Origin: Rugosibacter sp.
GTDB lineage: Bacteria; Pseudomonadota; Gammaproteobacteria; Burkholderiales; Rhodocyclaceae
Length of the DNA stretch: 64,000 bases
Reading direction: 5' to 3'
NCBI GenBank assembly: GCA_030645365.1
Contig: JAUSMB010000035.1
Coordinates: forward strand, 1 to 64,000
Part shown: piece by piece, positions 29,744-42,168 of the stretch
Layout of the letters: the number at the start of each line of letters is the position of its first letter
Position numbering within the stretch: the stretch's first letter is position 1
Notes under the pieces: model-generated
Databases searched by the model: none
What the model was told of the DNA's origin: nothing
Seen by the model: the letters and a program-made list of their open reading frames with translations, nothing else
Position numbers and translations under genes: made by a program

Positions 29744-29900
29744 ACCACTTATCAATCGCAGGCCGAACCGTCCGATATGAAAGCCCGCTGAGCTTCACGA
29801 TTTGCATCACGTCATATCCCTTGCGATGCAAGCGCATCACTTGTTTGCGTTGTCTTTTTCTATCTGCTCAGCATGGAAACTGATTCAGCTTTTTCAAAAT
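29744..29900 (-). pseudogene. IS630-type transposase N-terminal remnant (left flank of island)
   Basis: Minus strand encodes KRQRKQVMRLHRKGYDVMQIVKLSGLSYRTVRPAIDKW (IS630-type HTH); about 90 bp similar to 41990-42130. Confidence 0.8.
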
Positions 29901-29911
29901 CGAATCCACAC

Positions 29912-30784
29912 CTACGAGGCACGGTTCATGAACACGCCGCGATGGAAATTTAATCGCGCGATCCCACCGGGGCCATGACGACAACTCAGTGCATGCACAT
30001 GAGCGATTTCCGGTGGCTCATCTTTAATCGGGTAGTAGTAGTTTTCTCGATACAGCATAAGCAGCAAATCTGGCGATGGACATAACAAGCCCGCAGGTGC
30101 GTCCCCGGCACGTGGCCATTTGAATTTGCGTTTTTCAGGCTTCCTCAAGAGCCCGGATGTCAGTATGACCGCTACACCGGTATCCTTGATGAGCGCTCTG
30201 ATCTGTTTGACGATTTTTGATACTTTGCTTTTGCTGAGCAATGGCGCGAGCTCTGAAAGGGTGTCAATAATTACTATCTCTGGTTTGATGTCTATCGAGA
30301 TGTACTGATCAATTTTTTCCTTTATTGCTATTACAGTCAGCATGCCATCTTCGATGAAAAGCGGTGATGATTTGATCTCGTCCGCAGCACGGGTGATTTG
30401 CTCTTGATGTTCAGTAGCCACGTGGTTATATCGCAAATGGGTTTGTTCGACACCACTACGCAAGGCCAACAACCGTTGGATGATGATGCGTTTTTCCTTT
30501 GCCAAGCTGAATATTGCGCATGGGCGTTTTTGATCGACGGCAGCACTCAGTGCAATGGATAGCGCTAATGAAGTGGCCCCCATGCCAGGGCGACCAGCAA
30601 TGACATTGAAAGAATTCGGCATGATGCCGGTCGTTTGCTGGTCCAAATCTGAAAAGCCCGTTGAGATACCGCCCCATAGCGGGTAATTCTTTTGATCCTG
30701 CAAGTCTTCAATGCAGTTGTCTATGCAACCATCGATTGGCTCAACGCCATACGCTGCCCATCTAGATTTATCGATCATCATCAA
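29912..30784 (-). CDS. DnaB C-terminal-domain-like (RecA fold) protein lacking key catalytic residues
   Basis: STGFSDLDQQTTGIMPNSFNVIAGRPGMGATSLALSIALS aligns with DnaB STGFxDLDxxTxGxxPxxLxIxAxRPxMGKTxxA; later SLAK vs SLEM and SGLLR vs SQLNR. Confidence 0.85.
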   Translation of the reverse strand: MMMIDKSRWAAYGVEPIDGCIDNCIEDLQDQKNYPLWGGISTGFSDLDQQTTGIMPNSFNVIAGRPGMGATSLALSIALSAAVDQKRPCAIFSLAKEKRIIIQRLLALRSGVEQTHLRYNHVATEHQEQITRAADEIKSSPLFIEDGMLTVIAIKEKIDQYISIDIKPEIVIIDTLSELAPLLSKSKVSKIVKQIRALIKDTGVAVILTSGLLRKPEKRKFKWPRAGDAPAGLLCPSPDLLLMLYRENYYYPIKDEPPEIAHVHALSCRHGPGGIARLNFHRGVFMNRAS

Positions 30785-30938
30785 AAATACTCAAGCGAAA
30801 TGCAGTTGGCTGCGTGTCTGAATTGGTACTTGCTGTATTCGCGTTAAGCAGCAAGTTGTGCGCTAACTCGATTGATCGCATGGTGATTTACGTTACAACG
30901 CTGGTTGTCAAATCAGGGAATGTCGAGTAATCGATTGC

Positions 30939-32795
30939 TTATAAGGCAGCCACTGCGACATTGTGCTCTGCGCATATTGAAATCAAATCCGCTTGATCAA
31001 GAATCGGATCAGTCAGCAAGTGGGTCGCTATCGAATCCAGCATGTCACGATGGCCGCTTATCAAATCGACGACGTTGCGGTATTCATCCGCAAGAAATGA
31101 ACGCGTCAGGGATTCGACATGCGCGTACTCGGAAGGTGTGGGTGTGCCAAACACGATGGCAAGGTTCGATCCGGCATTGGCCGAATCATCCATTCCCGGA
31201 GCAAACCCGTATTTGCTGAACGCCTGCGTGGCATATCGTGTGGCTTCCTCCAGATCACTTATCGCGCCAACCGATACATTCGCCGATCCCGCAAAGACCT
31301 GCTCAGCGGCACGACCAGCCAACGCAATGCGAACCTGATGCAAAAAGTTCCGATACGTTGATTGTGACTCCAACGAATGCAGGTACCCATAAGACTCGAT
31401 GACCACGCCCTTGAAGGTGATCCCTTCTATGATCGTGGAATATTCGGGAATATTGCGACCACTGGAATCAAGCACCGCAACCAGGGCATGCCCAGCTTCA
31501 TGATAGGCAACCTGACGACGTATTGGCTCGTCATCGAGCGGTGCCTTATCGGATTCAACCGTGCCCCGCGCCCCAAAATCAAGCAGATCCAGAAACGTCA
31601 GTGGGCGATTCACTTGCCGTGACAGGCGCTTCATTGCCAGCGCTGCAAGACTTTTGGCGCGCTCTGAGTGATGGCCTGAAATTAACTTGCCAACCTTTGC
31701 TGTCGAACCGGTCAGCGAATCGCCGCATAGCGCCAAGCCAATGCCTTCAAGAAATTTTCTGCCAATCTGCTCATGCGACCATTTCGGCACAAAAAATCGT
31801 CGATCAAAGGCGCCAACTGCCCGAAGTGATTCGGCCAGGTCATCAATCTCATAGGCTGCAGTGGCGAAGATGACAGGTTTAGCAGGATCAAATCCCTTCA
31901 TGTAGCTCACCAGCTTTTTCCGGAAATCAGAGCGAGTGGCAATATCCTCCTCATCCGCATCTTTTTCTGCCTTTTCCAGCATCCAGTCGCCCGGTTCGAG
32001 AAAAATCATGATGGGTGCGTTATCGCTATAGGGATCTGATTCATTCAATGGAATACTCATGACTGCATCATCCGGAATTGAGACAAACGCCATTCCTGCA
32101 TCGCAGGCGATACGCTTGACTATCGATTCAGCGCGCTTCATGTTGTTGTGAGCAATGACGACGCCATGACCAAGAATTTCCCAGTTGTCTGCGCTGGCGC
32201 CATGGGCAATTGCCTCTTGAATCTCTGCCGACCAGCGTTGCAAACAGGCTGTCCCCGGCAAGGATTCCCAGGCAGGCAGGTCTGCATCGGCTAGCGATGT
32301 GGTGACCAATGGCTCTGGCGACTTAGACTTACCAAGGAGGCTCGCCAGCGCACTGGATGCTGTCTTGCCGGCATATGCGACTGCCGCAATGGCTGGCGCA
32401 TAGTCATCGAGTGTCGTGCAGGCCAATTGATCCATATTCTTGAGCATCGCTACGCTCAATTCACTGCCTTCAATATCGAGCCCGTATCTGAACCGAAAGC
32501 GCCCATCGTCCATCAGCAAATCGAGCGAACCTTGTTTGCAATTGGCGTTGATACGGGTAAAGAGCTCGGCAAGCTCACTGCGACGATTTGGTGGGATAGT
32601 TTGTTTCGAATACTGGTACAAGCAAACCCACTGCTTCTCAGTATCCATGTCAATAAACACGGAATAATTACCTGACCCCGCGTTGGATTGGTATCGGCAC
32701 TGCGCCTGCTTGCCATCCTCTGCGACATCGAGCGAATTCCCTTCAAATTGAGGTTCGCTCATCCATTCTTTGGTCACATCGATCAGGCTGCGCAT
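30939..32795 (-). CDS. YbjN-domain / degenerate FtsH-like AAA / M41 peptidase fusion protein
   Basis: C-terminal YHEAGHALVAVLD (M41 HEXXH) and GAISDLEEATRYATQ; middle GVVIAHNNMKRAESIVKRIACDAG aligns to FtsH Walker A, APIMIFLEPGD to Walker B; N-terminal ~130 aa YbjN-like; no TM segment seen. Confidence 0.85.
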   Translation of the reverse strand: MRSLIDVTKEWMSEPQFEGNSLDVAEDGKQAQCRYQSNAGSGNYSVFIDMDTEKQWVCLYQYSKQTIPPNRRSELAELFTRINANCKQGSLDLLMDDGRFRFRYGLDIEGSELSVAMLKNMDQLACTTLDDYAPAIAAVAYAGKTASSALASLLGKSKSPEPLVTTSLADADLPAWESLPGTACLQRWSAEIQEAIAHGASADNWEILGHGVVIAHNNMKRAESIVKRIACDAGMAFVSIPDDAVMSIPLNESDPYSDNAPIMIFLEPGDWMLEKAEKDADEEDIATRSDFRKKLVSYMKGFDPAKPVIFATAAYEIDDLAESLRAVGAFDRRFFVPKWSHEQIGRKFLEGIGLALCGDSLTGSTAKVGKLISGHHSERAKSLAALAMKRLSRQVNRPLTFLDLLDFGARGTVESDKAPLDDEPIRRQVAYHEAGHALVAVLDSSGRNIPEYSTIIEGITFKGVVIESYGYLHSLESQSTYRNFLHQVRIALAGRAAEQVFAGSANVSVGAISDLEEATRYATQAFSKYGFAPGMDDSANAGSNLAIVFGTPTPSEYAHVESLTRSFLADEYRNVVDLISGHRDMLDSIATHLLTDPILDQADLISICAEHNVAVAAL

Positions 32796-32800
32796 GATGG

Positions 32801-32824
32801 CTTCTCCATGGTGGTATGGAGAAG
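32801..32824 (-). promoter_or_regulatory. Perfect 9-bp hairpin enclosing the Shine-Dalgarno sequence of the FtsH-like gene
   Basis: mRNA 5'-CUUCUCCAU-ACCACC-AUGGAGAAG-CCAUC-AUG; SD GGAGAAG forms the 3' arm. Confidence 0.65.
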
Positions 32825-32838
32825 ATTATCAGGCTAAG

Positions 32839-32859
32839 GTGCGACATATGGTGTCGCAC
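32839..32859. promoter_or_regulatory. Dyad symmetry, candidate operator upstream of the FtsH-like gene
   Basis: GTGCGACA-N5-TGTCGCAC perfect 8-bp arms. Confidence 0.5.
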
Positions 32860-33212
32860 TATTTGCAAAGGTTGATTCAGGAATGTTACGACAAGGATTA
32901 CAACGGCAGCGTTGGCCATGAGGTCAACCTATGATCGGCTCCAATCAATCGAAATCAATTCAGGTGCCACCTTTGTTCCCGAATGGCGCTAGGCGCAAAT
33001 AGCTGAGCTTTGCCGGTAGTGAGGCAATTGCCTCTGCATCACCTATCGGGATGACACCCGATTCGAGTGCGAAGAGGTGGGGGTATTGGCCTTGCGTGAC
33101 CTGGGTGAGCCGTCGCTACTGACGGGTATACATGCGGAGGAGGAGATCTGTCGCTTGCACCATAATATGATCAAACGCTTTTGCGCTTATCGGAGGAGCA
33201 TCGTGAGGCTAC

Positions 33213-36241: not shown

Positions 36242-37467
36242 GGAAACCCTGAATAAGTGGCATTTACTGTGAACGATTTTGATGTCATGCGGTCAGATGC
36301 TGAGTATCGAACACTGGGATGGGAATGATGAAGCAGATGACATTGGCGACTGGGACGGGCTTTGATCTGCACGCGCGGGCGACACGGAAGGCTGAGTTTC
36401 TGGCGAAGATGGAGCGCCTGATGCCGTGGTCGGAGTTGTGTGCCTTGGTTGAGCCGCACTACCCGAAGGCTGGCAACGGCCGACCGCCGATCGGACTGGA
36501 GCGGATGCTGCGCATGTACTGGGTAGCCAACTGGTTCAATCTGGCCGATGAAGCCTGCGAGGATGCGATGTACGACACGGCGGTATTTCGGGAGTTCTGC
36601 GGCTTTGATTTGGGCCGGGAGCGGATTCCGGACGCCACGACCCTGCTGAAGTTTCGGCATCTGCTCGAAGAACACGACTTCGGCAAGGAGATGTTTGCCC
36701 GTGTCGGCGCGTTGTTGCAAGCCAATGGTGTCAAAGTTTCCGGCGGCACCATGGTTGATGCCACCCTGATCGCTGCGCCGCCTTCGACCAAGAACGAGGA
36801 GAAAGCCCGCGACCCCGAGATGCATCAGACCAAGAAGGGCAACCAGTGGTACTTTTTGAATCCGTTTCTGGACGGCATGAAGCTGCATATCGGCGCGGAT
36901 AGCAAAACCGGTCTGATTCATAGTGCCAGCGTGACGGCCGCGAACGTCCATGACAACCAGCAAGTGGAGAACCTCCTGCATGGCAACGAAACTCGCTTCT
37001 ACGGCGACAGTGCCTACCGGGGCAAGGTGCAACGGGAGCGTCTCAAGGAACTGGCACCGAACGCCAAGGACTTCACCAACAAGCGAGCCTACCGCAATGC
37101 GCCGTTGTCGGATGCCGACAAGGAAACGAACCGTCGCAAGTCGGGTATCCGCGCCAGGGTCGAGCATCCCTTCCTGATCCTCAAGCGCCTGTGGGGCTTT
37201 GCCAAGGTGCGCTATCGGGGTTTGGCGAAGAACGCCAACCGGGCCTTTGTCCAGAAACGGATTCAAACCATGCTGGCAGCAATCAACATGCTCAAGCATG
37301 GCAGACCGCTGACGGGAGAGGTGCGTCCAGCATGAGCGCAATACGGGGGAATGCCCCAAAATCTCCCGCCCATGGGGCTGGTAGTTGATGAACTTTGCCC
37401 GCTTCGCGTCATTTCGTCTCAATTCATCGCCCCCAGGGGAAATCTCGGTGGCTTGTTCAGCGTTTCC
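36242..37467 (+). mobile_element. IS5-family insertion sequence, apparently intact
   Basis: Imperfect terminal inverted repeats GGAAACcCTGAAtAAG / GGAAACgCTGAAcAAG, TTAA duplication at 36238-36241 and 37468-37471, single full-length transposase ORF. Confidence 0.9.
36319..37335 (+). CDS. IS5-family transposase
   Basis: GGTMVDATLIAAPPSTKNEEKARDPEMHQTKKGNQWYF; YGDSAYRG; RARVEHPFLILKRLWGFAKVRYRGLAKN (DDE). Confidence 0.93.
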   Translation: MGMMKQMTLATGTGFDLHARATRKAEFLAKMERLMPWSELCALVEPHYPKAGNGRPPIGLERMLRMYWVANWFNLADEACEDAMYDTAVFREFCGFDLGRERIPDATTLLKFRHLLEEHDFGKEMFARVGALLQANGVKVSGGTMVDATLIAAPPSTKNEEKARDPEMHQTKKGNQWYFLNPFLDGMKLHIGADSKTGLIHSASVTAANVHDNQQVENLLHGNETRFYGDSAYRGKVQRERLKELAPNAKDFTNKRAYRNAPLSDADKETNRRKSGIRARVEHPFLILKRLWGFAKVRYRGLAKNANRAFVQKRIQTMLAAINMLKHGRPLTGEVRPA

Positions 37468-38271: not shown

Positions 38272-41200
38272 ATGCATCGACAGAACGGCACGACCTTTTA
38301 CTCTGCCAGCGATCTCGCTGATTTCGTTGAATGTCGTCATATCGCGACACTTGGCCTGAAAAATCTGGTGACACCATTGCCTAAAAAGGCAGCGGGAGAA
38401 GAAGCAAAAATTCTTCAGGCTCACGGTATTGACCATGAAACTGATTACTTGAACCGTTTGCGAAGCCGTGATCTGGAGATAGCCGACATACCCACTACCG
38501 GTACTCATGACGAGCGTGTACAGCAAACCCTCAATGCCATGCGGAATGGCGCTGACGTCATCTATCAGGCAGCATTTGAATTGGGTTCTTTTCGGGGCTA
38601 TGCTGACTTTCTGCTCAAGGTAGCCATTCCGTCCAATCTGGGCAATTATTCTTACGAAGTAGCGGATACCAAACTGGCAAGGAAGGGTAAAGCCAGGTAT
38701 CTGGTCCAGATCGTTTTGTATTCCGACATGCTTGAAGCCGCTCAAGGATTGGCGCCCGCTTACGCCCATCTTGAGCTGGGCGATGGCACAGAAAAATCCT
38801 ATCGTCTGGATGACTTCCGACACTATGTTGCTGCGCTGAAACAGCGTTTTCTGGCGTTCATGGTGAATCCGCCGGAAACACAGCCGGAAAAGTGCAGCCA
38901 CTGCGGGCTTTGCCCCTGGGAAGATCTGTGCAAAGCCGAGTGGGTGCGCCAAGACCATCTCAATCAGGTAGCTAACGTTCGCGCCGGTGATATTCGTAAA
39001 TTGCACGCGGCCGGCATCAGCACATTGAAAGCACTGGCAATGGCCGCTGAAGACGTCAAAGAAATTGCATCATTCGCCACCATCAAAACTCAGGCTGCAC
39101 TCCAGCTCAAAAAGCGCGATACCGGCATTGATGCGGTAGTGTGCAAGACGCCCGACCCCGAGACACAAAACGGCTTCTTTCAGTTACCGATTCCAGACGA
39201 GGGTGACCTGTATTTCGACATGGAGGGGTATCCCCATGACCCGGGTGGCCTCGAATATCTGTTTGGTGTGTGTTATCGCGAAGGCAGTAGGCTTGCCTTC
39301 AAACCATTCTGGGGCCACACCCGGCAGGAGGAGAAGCTGGCTTTTGAGCAATTTATCGACTTTGTGATGGAGCGTATCGCGCTGAATCCCAGGCTGCATA
39401 TTTACCACTATGCCGATTACGAGCGCCGCGCCCTGAAAAAGCTGATGGCTGTTCATGGCACACGGGAGGCCGAAGTGGATCAATTGCTGCGCGACCAGCG
39501 ACTGGTGGATCTGTATGCCGTTGTTCGCCACGCGATACAGACCTCGGAACCACGGTACTCGATCAAGAACCTTGAAACCTTCTACATGAAGGGAGAACGT
39601 GCTTCCGACGTTAAAAATGCCGGCGCCAGCATTGTCTATTACGAACACTGGCGAACCCAAGGTGATCAAAAATGGCTGGAAGACATCGAGCGCTATAACG
39701 AGGAGGATTGTGTCTCGACAGAAAAACTGCACGTCTGGTTACTTCAGTTGCGCGAACGAGCTCAACAGGAATATGCGTTGGCCATACCGTGGATGGAGAC
39801 AGCCGTTCCAGATATTGAGAATCAAGCCGAAGCCACCGAACGATCGGCCAAGGCATTGGCGGCTGAAGCACTGCGCAACACCCTTCGGGAGCGCTTGACG
39901 TCCTTGCTGGCTTCTCTGCCAACGGACTCACCTCAGCGAGGCGCAGCAGAATTGAACTTGCACTTGCTCGATTTTTACTGGCGCGAGGCCAAGCCCGCTT
40001 TCTGGAAAATGTTTGAGCAGCAAAAACGCTCGGTAGAAGAATTGATCGATGATCTCGACGTCATCGCTGGATTGACACTGGATCCAACCGCTGAGGTGGT
40101 GAAGGATAAGCAATCCTTTATTTATCACTACCGCATGCCACCTCAAGAATACCGCCTGAAGATGGGTGATGGCGTTCGAGATACCCAGTCCTTGGGTGGC
40201 GTCGGGACGATTGCTGCTATTGATCCAGCTAACCAGCGCATCGCATTGCGCATTGGTGGACTGACACTCAAGAGAGTGTGGGATGAGCAGATGCCTGGAT
40301 TGCTTTCGATCAGTGCTTCCGGCCGAGTCGACATGGGAATTTTGCAGTCGGCAATCATGCGCTATACCGCTGCCCGCTACGCGGATGATGCCGCTCCAGA
40401 TCGCTATCGTGCGTTGGCATCCTTGCTGGAAAGACAGCTCCCGCGAATCAGCGATTTACCTTCCGGGGCTCCGGTATTGTCCGGTAACGCTTCAACCGAA
40501 GCGGTAATCGATGTTGTCCAGCGGCTGCAGGAGAGCTACCTGATTGTGCAGGGGCCACCCGGCACGGGCAAAACGTATACCGGTGCTCGGGTGATCTTGA
40601 GTTTGCTGGAGGCGGGTAAACGGGTTGGTGTCTGTGCCATGAGCCATAAGGCAGTGTCTAACCTGCTGAATGCGGTAACTGACGCAGCGATAAAAAACAA
40701 GAAGTCATTCGTTGGTGCCCGCAAAGGTGACAAGGATGCGGCACTGATCGATGATCGCTTCATCAAGGATGTCGATAAGCCCGAAGATACCCTGGACCCG
40801 GCATTGCGTCTGGTAGGTGGAACGGCGTGGGTATTTGCCAGAGAGGATGCCGACCAGACATACGATTATCTGTTCGTTGATGAGGCGGGGCAGGTGTCAT
40901 TGGCTAATCTCGTGGCCATGGGGTGTGCGGCGCGAAATATTGTTTTGCTGGGCGATCAGATGCAGTTGGGACAACCGCTGCAGGGAACGCACCCAGGCGA
41001 CTCTGGCTTGTCAGCTCTGCAATATCTGTTGCGAGACCATGCCACGGTTCCCCAAGCGCTTGGCGTGCTGCTGAATGTGTCTTACCGGATGCATCCCGAT
41101 GTTTGTGGCTTCATATCCGACGCTGTCTACGATTCACGATTGACCAACCATCCCGATACCGCCAATCAGCAACTCGTTCTGAATGAAAAGGCGGATCGTG

Positions 41201-41784
41201 TTTTGAAATCAAGCGGGATTGCCTTCGAGCCGGTCACACATACTGGCTGTGCTCAAACCTCGACAGAAGAAGCGGTTCGTATCCGCGAAATCATCGCATC
41301 GCTGTGCTCGCAATCGTTCATCGATACTGACCAGGTCAAGCATTCAATCAAGGCCGAAAATATCTTGGTGGTGGCTCCTTACAACGCGCAAGTACGCGTG
41401 CTGAAGGAGCTTCTTCCTGAGACGATTGCCATTGGTACGGTCGATAAGTTCCAGGGGCAAGAGGCAGAGGTGGTGATCATTTCCATGACAACCTCCAGCG
41501 GTGAGGAAATGCCACGAAACATGGAATTCCTCTTTGATCCGCATCGATTGAATGTCGCCATTTCACGGGCGAAGATTTTGGCGATATTGGTGGCAAGCCC
41601 GAAATTGCTTGAAATTGACTGCACGACGCCGGAGCAGATGGCGCTGGTAAATACGCTTTGTTGGGTGGCGGATCTCGGCAATTCAGGAACGACGCTGTCA
41701 GCCGCCTCCAGCGTGTCTTACCCTGATTCGTTACCGTGGCAATCACCAACAGTTTCTGCCGAGTGCCACTCACCGTGTAGGTAA
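38272..41784 (+). CDS. TM0106-type RecB-like nuclease fused to SF1 (Dna2/Upf1-like) helicase
   Basis: YSYEVADTKLARKGKARYLVQIVLYSDML nuclease core, CSHCGLCPWEDLC cysteine cluster, QGPPGTGKTYTGARVI Walker A, VDEAGQ, RLNVAISRAK; last ~25 codons lie in the IS630 remnant. Confidence 0.88.
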   Translation: MHRQNGTTFYSASDLADFVECRHIATLGLKNLVTPLPKKAAGEEAKILQAHGIDHETDYLNRLRSRDLEIADIPTTGTHDERVQQTLNAMRNGADVIYQAAFELGSFRGYADFLLKVAIPSNLGNYSYEVADTKLARKGKARYLVQIVLYSDMLEAAQGLAPAYAHLELGDGTEKSYRLDDFRHYVAALKQRFLAFMVNPPETQPEKCSHCGLCPWEDLCKAEWVRQDHLNQVANVRAGDIRKLHAAGISTLKALAMAAEDVKEIASFATIKTQAALQLKKRDTGIDAVVCKTPDPETQNGFFQLPIPDEGDLYFDMEGYPHDPGGLEYLFGVCYREGSRLAFKPFWGHTRQEEKLAFEQFIDFVMERIALNPRLHIYHYADYERRALKKLMAVHGTREAEVDQLLRDQRLVDLYAVVRHAIQTSEPRYSIKNLETFYMKGERASDVKNAGASIVYYEHWRTQGDQKWLEDIERYNEEDCVSTEKLHVWLLQLRERAQQEYALAIPWMETAVPDIENQAEATERSAKALAAEALRNTLRERLTSLLASLPTDSPQRGAAELNLHLLDFYWREAKPAFWKMFEQQKRSVEELIDDLDVIAGLTLDPTAEVVKDKQSFIYHYRMPPQEYRLKMGDGVRDTQSLGGVGTIAAIDPANQRIALRIGGLTLKRVWDEQMPGLLSISASGRVDMGILQSAIMRYTAARYADDAAPDRYRALASLLERQLPRISDLPSGAPVLSGNASTEAVIDVVQRLQESYLIVQGPPGTGKTYTGARVILSLLEAGKRVGVCAMSHKAVSNLLNAVTDAAIKNKKSFVGARKGDKDAALIDDRFIKDVDKPEDTLDPALRLVGGTAWVFAREDADQTYDYLFVDEAGQVSLANLVAMGCAARNIVLLGDQMQLGQPLQGTHPGDSGLSALQYLLRDHATVPQALGVLLNVSYRMHPDVCGFISDAVYDSRLTNHPDTANQQLVLNEKADRVLKSSGIAFEPVTHTGCAQTSTEEAVRIREIIASLCSQSFIDTDQVKHSIKAENILVVAPYNAQVRVLKELLPETIAIGTVDKFQGQEAEVVIISMTTSSGEEMPRNMEFLFDPHRLNVAISRAKILAILVASPKLLEIDCTTPEQMALVNTLCWVADLGNSGTTLSAASSVSYPDSLPWQSPTVSAECHSPCR

Positions 41785-42130
41785 CCGGCGTCTTGCCTGC
41801 TGACGCGTAGCTGCGGCCGCGCACATCGGTATTGATCGGGGCTGTCTCATCGCCCCAGTGAATCTCGCCGCTTTCGGCCTTGGCACGCTTTTCAATTTCC
41901 GGGTATTGCTCGGTGAACCAGGCTTGTACGGCTTGCGGCCGCTGCTCGCAGGTCTTATTGATCGGCTTCTGTGGGGTGAAACCCCGGAGCGACAGATAGT
42001 TGCATCACGCCATATCCCTTGCGATGCCACCGCACTACTTGCTTGCGCCGTTCGTGCAGTTGCTCCAGTGTCGAATAGCTTGTGTCGTCTTTTACTATCT
42101 GCTCAGTATGGAGACTGATTCGGATGTTTC
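41708..42130 (-). pseudogene. IS630-type transposase remnant with internal deletion (right flank of island)
   Basis: Minus strand fragments STLEQLHERRKQVVRWHRKGYGVMQ / YLSLRGFTPQKPINKTCEQRPQAVQAWFTEQYPEIEKRAKAESGEIHWGDETAPINTDVRGRSYASAGKTPVTYTVSGTRQKLLVIATVTNQGKTRW. Confidence 0.88.
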
Positions 42131-42168
42131 AATATTATCGTGCCGAGTCAAGAGTTGTCATTTGTTTG

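Follow-up and report, generated by a model that had tools for sequence, protein, structure and literature searches.

AAA proteases are generally regarded as machines that need a motor to feed the protease chamber. The plastid FtsHi members, which are relatives of FtsH, have no protease motif and serve a motor. In LonC of Meiothermus taiwanensis, the AAA-like module has no ATPase motifs, and unfolded substrates are reported to be degraded independently of ATP (PMC3391209). YbjN proteins have a type III chaperone-like fold, as described for AmyR (PMC5398634), and they have been linked to stress and DNA repair (PMC3575483, PMC3181261). Chaperones of the YbjN type, known as TY-chaperones, are reported to lie next to WYL regulators in operons predicted to act against phages (PMC9503650). 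Dead-AAA proteases such as LonC, YbjN chaperones and M41 proteases are thus each already known kinds of protein.

Here we describe a soluble protein (P0002) in which a chaperone-like YbjN domain is joined to an AAA-like module that has neither P-loop nor Walker B and to an M41 part with an intact zinc-protease site. It is encoded next to a DnaB-like pseudo-ATPase (P0001). Both genes are found in the window, i.e. the whole 64,000-nucleotide stretch of Rugosibacter sp. DNA analysed. Neither an M41 lineage whose AAA module is dead throughout the family nor its fusion to YbjN was found described in the literature searched. The open-licence literature held no paper joining YbjN, FtsH and M41, none of relevance on a DnaB decoy defence system and no described system with this pairing, as an earlier note made from the sequence had anticipated.

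The island

The two genes belong to an island that extends from ~29.8 to 42.1 kb and is flanked by core genes (Table 1). Its boundary repeats are 84-88% identical and have no other copy in the genome. Transposase fossils are present in the island. Upstream of the M41 gene, a gap of 417 bp (32796-33212) holds a plus-strand fossil reading ITYRDDTRFECEEVGVLALRDLGEPSLLTGIHAEEEICRLHHNMIKRF, with stops present, which is possibly a mobile-element remnant. At the other end of the island, the nuclease-helicase fusion (38272-41784) shows similarity to PADLOC MkoA.

Table 1. Positions in the window of the island boundaries, the genes between them and the zinc motif of P0002.
Feature	Position	Strand	Basis or remark
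Left island boundary repeat, IS630-like transposase gene fragment	29802..29900	+	Direct repeat of 42000-42135
P0001, DnaB linker-helix and RecA-domain pseudo-ATPase, about 289 aa	29912..30784	-	DnaB_C, lost catalytic signatures, AF2 model
P0002, YbjN / dead-AAA / M41 zinc-protease protein, 618 aa	30939..32795	-	Pfam, AAA-part model, family alignment
HEAGH zinc-binding/catalytic motif of P0002, residues 432-436	31488..31502	-	
PD-(D/E)XK_4 nuclease, PADLOC candidate PDC-S26, 498 aa	33213..34709	-	PF14281 E 4e-18; PDC-S26 E 5e-43
WYL/WCX transcription regulator, 357 aa	34811..35884	-	
IS5-type transposase inside the island	36319..37335	+	Pfam DDE_Tnp_1 / DUF772; DNA match to IS5 elements
RecB-like nuclease/superfamily 1 helicase, 1170 aa	38272..41784	+	RNase_H_2 and AAA_12
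Right island boundary repeat, same orientation, 12.2 kb from left copy	42000..42135	+	

P0002: a zinc protease on an AAA module without a motor

Pfam identifies a YbjN domain at residues 38-136 of P0002 (E 4e-7; 30.7 bits versus a cutoff of 22) and a Peptidase_M41 domain at 426-606 (E 1e-21), with no Pfam domain between them and no match of any AAA model. The zinc site is complete, with HEAGH at 432 and the third-ligand Asp motif VGAISDLEEAT / ISDLEEAT (match start 509). Stand-alone YbjN relatives occur at 34% identity. No transmembrane stretch was found in P0002, the highest 19-residue hydropathy mean being 1.26 versus 2.48 in a true FtsH, and no hydrophobic 19-mer above 1.5 occurs in four members of the dead-AAA M41 family. 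The FtsH model TIGR01241 gives P0002 75.6 bits, for a cutoff of 600. A ribosome-site-like GGAGAAG precedes the ATG of the gene.

The AAA module covers residues 180-405 (AlphaFold pLDDT ~75). By both sequence and fold, P0002 matches FtsH structures best, and a Foldseek search with the AAA part places FtsH at the top of the PDB matches, with other AAA proteins also retrieved. In the model, strand 211-215, helix 219-233, strand 236-240 and strand 262-266 follow one another, and the place expected for the P-loop is a 3-residue turn between the first strand and the helix. Where FtsH has the Walker A sequence GPPGTGKT, P0002 has an HNNMKRAE-type sequence; the P-loop has been exchanged as a whole rather than just mutated. 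The Walker B sequence IFIDEID of FtsH (4ww0) aligns to IFLEPGD. The model is usable for the AAA part only, since much of the YbjN and M41 parts falls below pLDDT 50 owing to an underlying alignment of 4 sequences.

A rare family with the same losses

A class-level search with full-length P0002 returned 263 genomes, nearly all with ordinary FtsH, and queries restricted to the N-terminal or AAA part were those that separated the true family. P0002 has four relatives (30-36% identity), from Burkholderiales and one Gemmatimonadota MAG. The search with the N-terminal part gave the G442 protein (464 aa; 36% identity across AAA and M41) and a Rhodocyclaceae MAG with two copies (G461; ~30%). Two peptide patterns, which may have missed diverged members, were scanned against 84,980 species genomes and gave this same Rhodocyclaceae MAG (L116, L117) and the Gemmatimonadota MAG (L115). 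The known family consists of five proteins in four genomes, so that context statistics are thin, and within the order three genomes in a sample of 399 have it, that of P0002 included. Viral contigs examined with the patterns used contain no family member, the loci retrieved, if any, being FtsH-like (23-29%); phage records give FtsH-like matches alone (22-32%), and plasmids give no match to the AAA part. PHROG phrog_30773, of unknown function and probably a viral FtsH, matches the AAA-M41 part of P0002 (30939-32795) and the G442 protein (L048:9702-11093).

In the five-protein alignment, P-loop and Walker B are absent from all members, P0002 included. Unrelated sequence occupies the P-loop position in the four relatives, and in place of Walker B there is a hydrophobic strand that leads into a conserved G-x-W turn, of the form hhhh-x-x-G-x-W in the relatives. 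The alignment retains L-R-x-x-G-x-F-D-R, several Trp/Gly positions and HEAGH, and of the four members whose frame is complete, three keep both zinc motifs, HEAGH and SDxxxAT. Local decay of the AAA module in P0002 was rejected as an explanation, the same motifs being lost across all four relatives. The dead AAA module is ancestral to an M41 family.

The Gemmatimonadota member (L115, 2930-4429) has HEAGH, and the third-ligand motif SDxxxAT is absent from it. Judging from this motif, its protease may be changing, and the conserved function may not be protease activity in every member.

P0001: a DnaB-like pseudo-ATPase

P0001 matches DnaB_C (PF03796, E 1e-42). It begins in the DnaB linker, probably at ATG 30781 rather than TTG 30784, and ends at the normal DnaB C-terminus; with about 289 aa, versus 455-537 aa in DnaB frames, it lacks the N-terminal domain. 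An alignment with seven DnaBs and a motif listing of DnaB relatives revealed losses at many sites. Walker A reads GRPGMGATS (K to A), FSLEM has become FSLAK (catalytic Glu gone), DYLQ has become DTLS (Tyr and Gln gone) and SQL has become SGL (Gln gone). The DNA loop LRESGAIEQDAD is replaced by -APAGLLCPSPD, with loss of the loop Arg/Glu; the Walker A Lys, catalytic Glu, motif Gln and RESGxIEQDAD loop are all present in the compared DnaBs. The Lys preceding the arginine finger is also lost; the finger Arg itself (R267) is kept, as is the Asp of Walker B. Across 37 viral DnaB domains, 48 positions show conservation of 90% or more, and P0001 retains 27 of these; the worst of the 37 domains keeps 83% of them and the median is 98%.

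The AF2 model of P0001 is of high quality (pLDDT 91, pTM 0.86). Its top fold match is 6kza, a crystal structure of an E. coli DnaB fragment together with DnaC, followed by other DnaBs. P0001 shares 30% identity with the organism's own DnaB fragment and 29-33% with other DnaBs, and is therefore not a recent copy. Viral scans with P0001 and with a DnaB P-loop carrying Ala for Lys yielded no second dead DnaB. Chance or recent decay is unlikely for the two genes, because a neutrally drifting frame of 289 codons at ~32% identity would be expected to carry many stops and because the AAA losses recur throughout the M41 family. No near relative exists, and the losses at many separate sites, together with an intact predicted fold, argue against local decay of P0001. 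As read from its residues and model, P0001 is a DnaB C-terminal domain of predicted RecA fold in which ATP- and DNA-site residues have been lost.

The earlier note had described the two full-length, same-strand frames as a soluble YbjN/FtsH-like M41 protease with a dead AAA module and an intact protease motif and as a dead DnaB-like ATPase. Both descriptions are borne out by the domain matches, motifs and hydropathy, and the AlphaFold models it had called for give a DnaB fold for P0001 and FtsH matches for the AAA part of P0002. Its proposal of selection on non-ATPase functions is supported. Close relatives with intact Walker motifs, which it would have taken as evidence against its reading, did not appear for the M41 protein, all four relatives lacking these motifs.

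Pairing of the two genes

The two genes are on the same strand, 154 bp apart, with the protease gene first and both frames uninterrupted. No terminator-like site was found between them, and the ribosome-site signal there is weak. A 37-aa ORF on the minus strand (30768-30881; MRSIELAHNLLLNANTAS...) lies between them, and its stop overlaps the P0001 start, which may reflect chance or translational coupling.

The available flanks of the four relatives contain no DnaB-like gene. The downstream flank is informative in two of them (G442 and G461:C25), where other genes follow; the other two loci (L115 and G461:C22) stop at a contig edge. No YbjN domain is present in the four relatives either. Within the family, the YbjN fusion and the DnaB-like neighbour are both unique to the genome of P0002. 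The association of an M41 protein with a dead DnaB is a single case and the pairing is not conserved, so that the 'two-gene cassette' of the earlier note is not supported.

Whether the two genes are unrelated cargo of one island, with the M41 protein acting alone and the DnaB-like gene being an independent remnant or regulator, is evenly balanced. The missing pair in every relative with usable flanks, the two features unique to one genome and the other insertions in the island (the IS5 element and the transposase fossils) speak for it, whereas the shared strand, the short gap free of a terminator-like site and the fact that just two relatives have a usable downstream flank speak against it. 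Because this explanation concerns the pairing only, it is compatible with a motorless protease as part of the best explanation given below.

Genomic context of the family

Defence-type genes occur within about 10 kb at all four loci checked, a number too small for statistics. In G442, the neighbour of the M41 gene encodes a GIY-YIG nuclease that matches PD-T4-3 (E 2e-19). A WYL regulator and a DUF2779/Cas4-like nuclease come next, and the whole block sits between the terminase and portal genes of a phage; a type I restriction subunit (HsdR) and AbiE are also nearby. The WYL regulator of the Rugosibacter island shares 36% identity over 328 aa with this G442 regulator, which lies two genes from the M41 gene. 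At the L115 locus, two WYL regulators precede the M41 gene on the same strand and are the sole defence-type genes there. At G461:C25, an HsdR subunit is encoded ~6 kb upstream, and the immediate neighbours are not defence-like. Across these four loci, the setting of the dead-AAA M41 family is consistently defence-like.

The G442 segment L048:5348-11093 carries an uncharacterised 288-aa protein, the DUF2779/Cas4-like nuclease, the WYL regulator, the PD-T4-3-like GIY-YIG nuclease and the dead-AAA M41 protein, and is a candidate prophage defence hotspot.

The interpretation of the earlier note is thus partly supported. Two dead ATPase derivatives are found in a defence-like setting, with the WYL regulator and the PDC-S26 nuclease in the island and defence-type genes at the loci of the relatives. 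Lack of a conserved neighbourhood among homologues, which the note had named as evidence against its reading, applies to the pair and not to association with defence genes in general.

A role in defence is, however, not the sole reading of the M41 family. It could consist of general proteostasis or stress enzymes that clear unfolded protein without ATP, as proposed for LonC (PMC3391209), and the stress and DNA-repair links of YbjN proteins would fit, as would the G461:C25 copy that is not directly beside defence genes. This explanation is unlikely given the very rare and patchy distribution in the order and the fact that in G442 and in the P0002 island the gene is cargo with known or candidate defence genes as neighbours.

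Proposed mechanism

The best explanation for P0002, held tentatively and at somewhat less than even confidence, is that of an ATP-independent, conflict-related chambered protease. P0002 belongs to a rare FtsH-derived lineage in which the ATP motor was lost and the AAA scaffold and zinc protease were retained. It most likely forms an FtsH-like ring, the protease chamber of which would be accessible without ATP to unfolded or presented polypeptides, in the manner of LonC. ATP independence is proposed because LonC persists with a dead AAA module as an ATP-independent chambered protease. The YbjN domain would stand in for the FtsH membrane anchor and serve as substrate receptor, since YbjN is type III chaperone-like and such chaperones are reported to accompany WYL regulators in operons predicted to counter phages. 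The dead-AAA M41 gene, being cargo of defence-type islands, would probably act in phage-host conflict.

The role of P0001 and any physical link with P0002 are speculative. P0001 might be a bait or binding partner that, for example, catches phage or host helicase loaders and presents them to P0002, an argument from its anatomy because it keeps the part of DnaB crystallised with a loader and has lost the enzymatic signatures. A working two-protein device, in which a DnaB decoy captures helicase loaders and the motorless YbjN-FtsH protease is activated by, or destroys, the complex, is doubtful at best.

Another two-protein scheme resembles a toxin-antitoxin pair. P0001, acting as a dominant-negative subunit in host or phage DnaB hexamers, would stall replication in abortive infection, and P0002 would be the antidote that degrades it in the absence of phage. 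In its favour, P0001 keeps the linker helix, the R267 arginine finger and the DnaB fold despite its lost ATP and DNA sites, as would be expected of a poison of the ring, and the protease gene comes first. It is nevertheless improbable, since 30% identity to the organism's own DnaB leaves little expectation of co-assembly, P0002 has no motor to extract a folded substrate and no second case of the pair was found. Least probable of all is that the two genes descend from a once functional FtsH-like protease and from the DnaB of a plasmid or phage and are now in decay, for although catalytic ATPase residues are gone from both and the island holds transposase fossils, frames of 618 and about 289 codons remain open at 30-36% identity to relatives, the P0002 zinc motif is intact, P0001 is modelled with high confidence and the same type of loss in every M41 family member largely refutes decay for P0002.

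If P0002 is indeed an ATP-independent chambered protease, its placement among phage-defence genes would make the motorless M41 protease a new type of protease effector. This raises the question of whether an M41 ring can function without ATP and, if so, what opens the ring.

Comparison with known systems

P0002 shares with FtsH and other M41 AAA proteases the M41 domain with HEAGH and SD(L/M)xxAT and an AAA-like scaffold with LRxxGxFDR. Unlike FtsH, it has no P-loop, no Walker B acidic pair and no membrane anchor, and the first arginine of the FtsH sequence GRFDR is replaced in its family, FDR being kept. P0001 has the full RecA fold and linker helix of DnaB, and its top fold match (6kza) is the domain of DnaB that interacts with DnaC; it differs from DnaB in the absence of the N-terminal domain, the Walker A Lys, the catalytic Glu, the motif Gln and the DNA-loop Arg/Glu.

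With YbjN and TY-chaperone proteins (AmyR, TY-Chap and DR1245, the last in PMC3575483), P0002 shares a YbjN domain above the Pfam cutoff, but in P0002 this domain is fused to a dead AAA-M41 part, an arrangement absent from other family members. The plastid FtsHi proteins and the Ycf2-FtsHi motor, with a weak sequence match (8xku), also illustrate an FtsH relative in which one of two activities is dead. They are the opposite case, as in P0002 the motor is dead and the protease is kept. Like P0002, LonC combines a protease with an AAA-like module that has no ATPase motifs. The Lon fold and the zinc M41 fold are unrelated proteases, and the likeness is an analogy of working only, in which an FtsH-derived lineage that lost its motor and kept its protease would be LonC's counterpart among M41 proteases.
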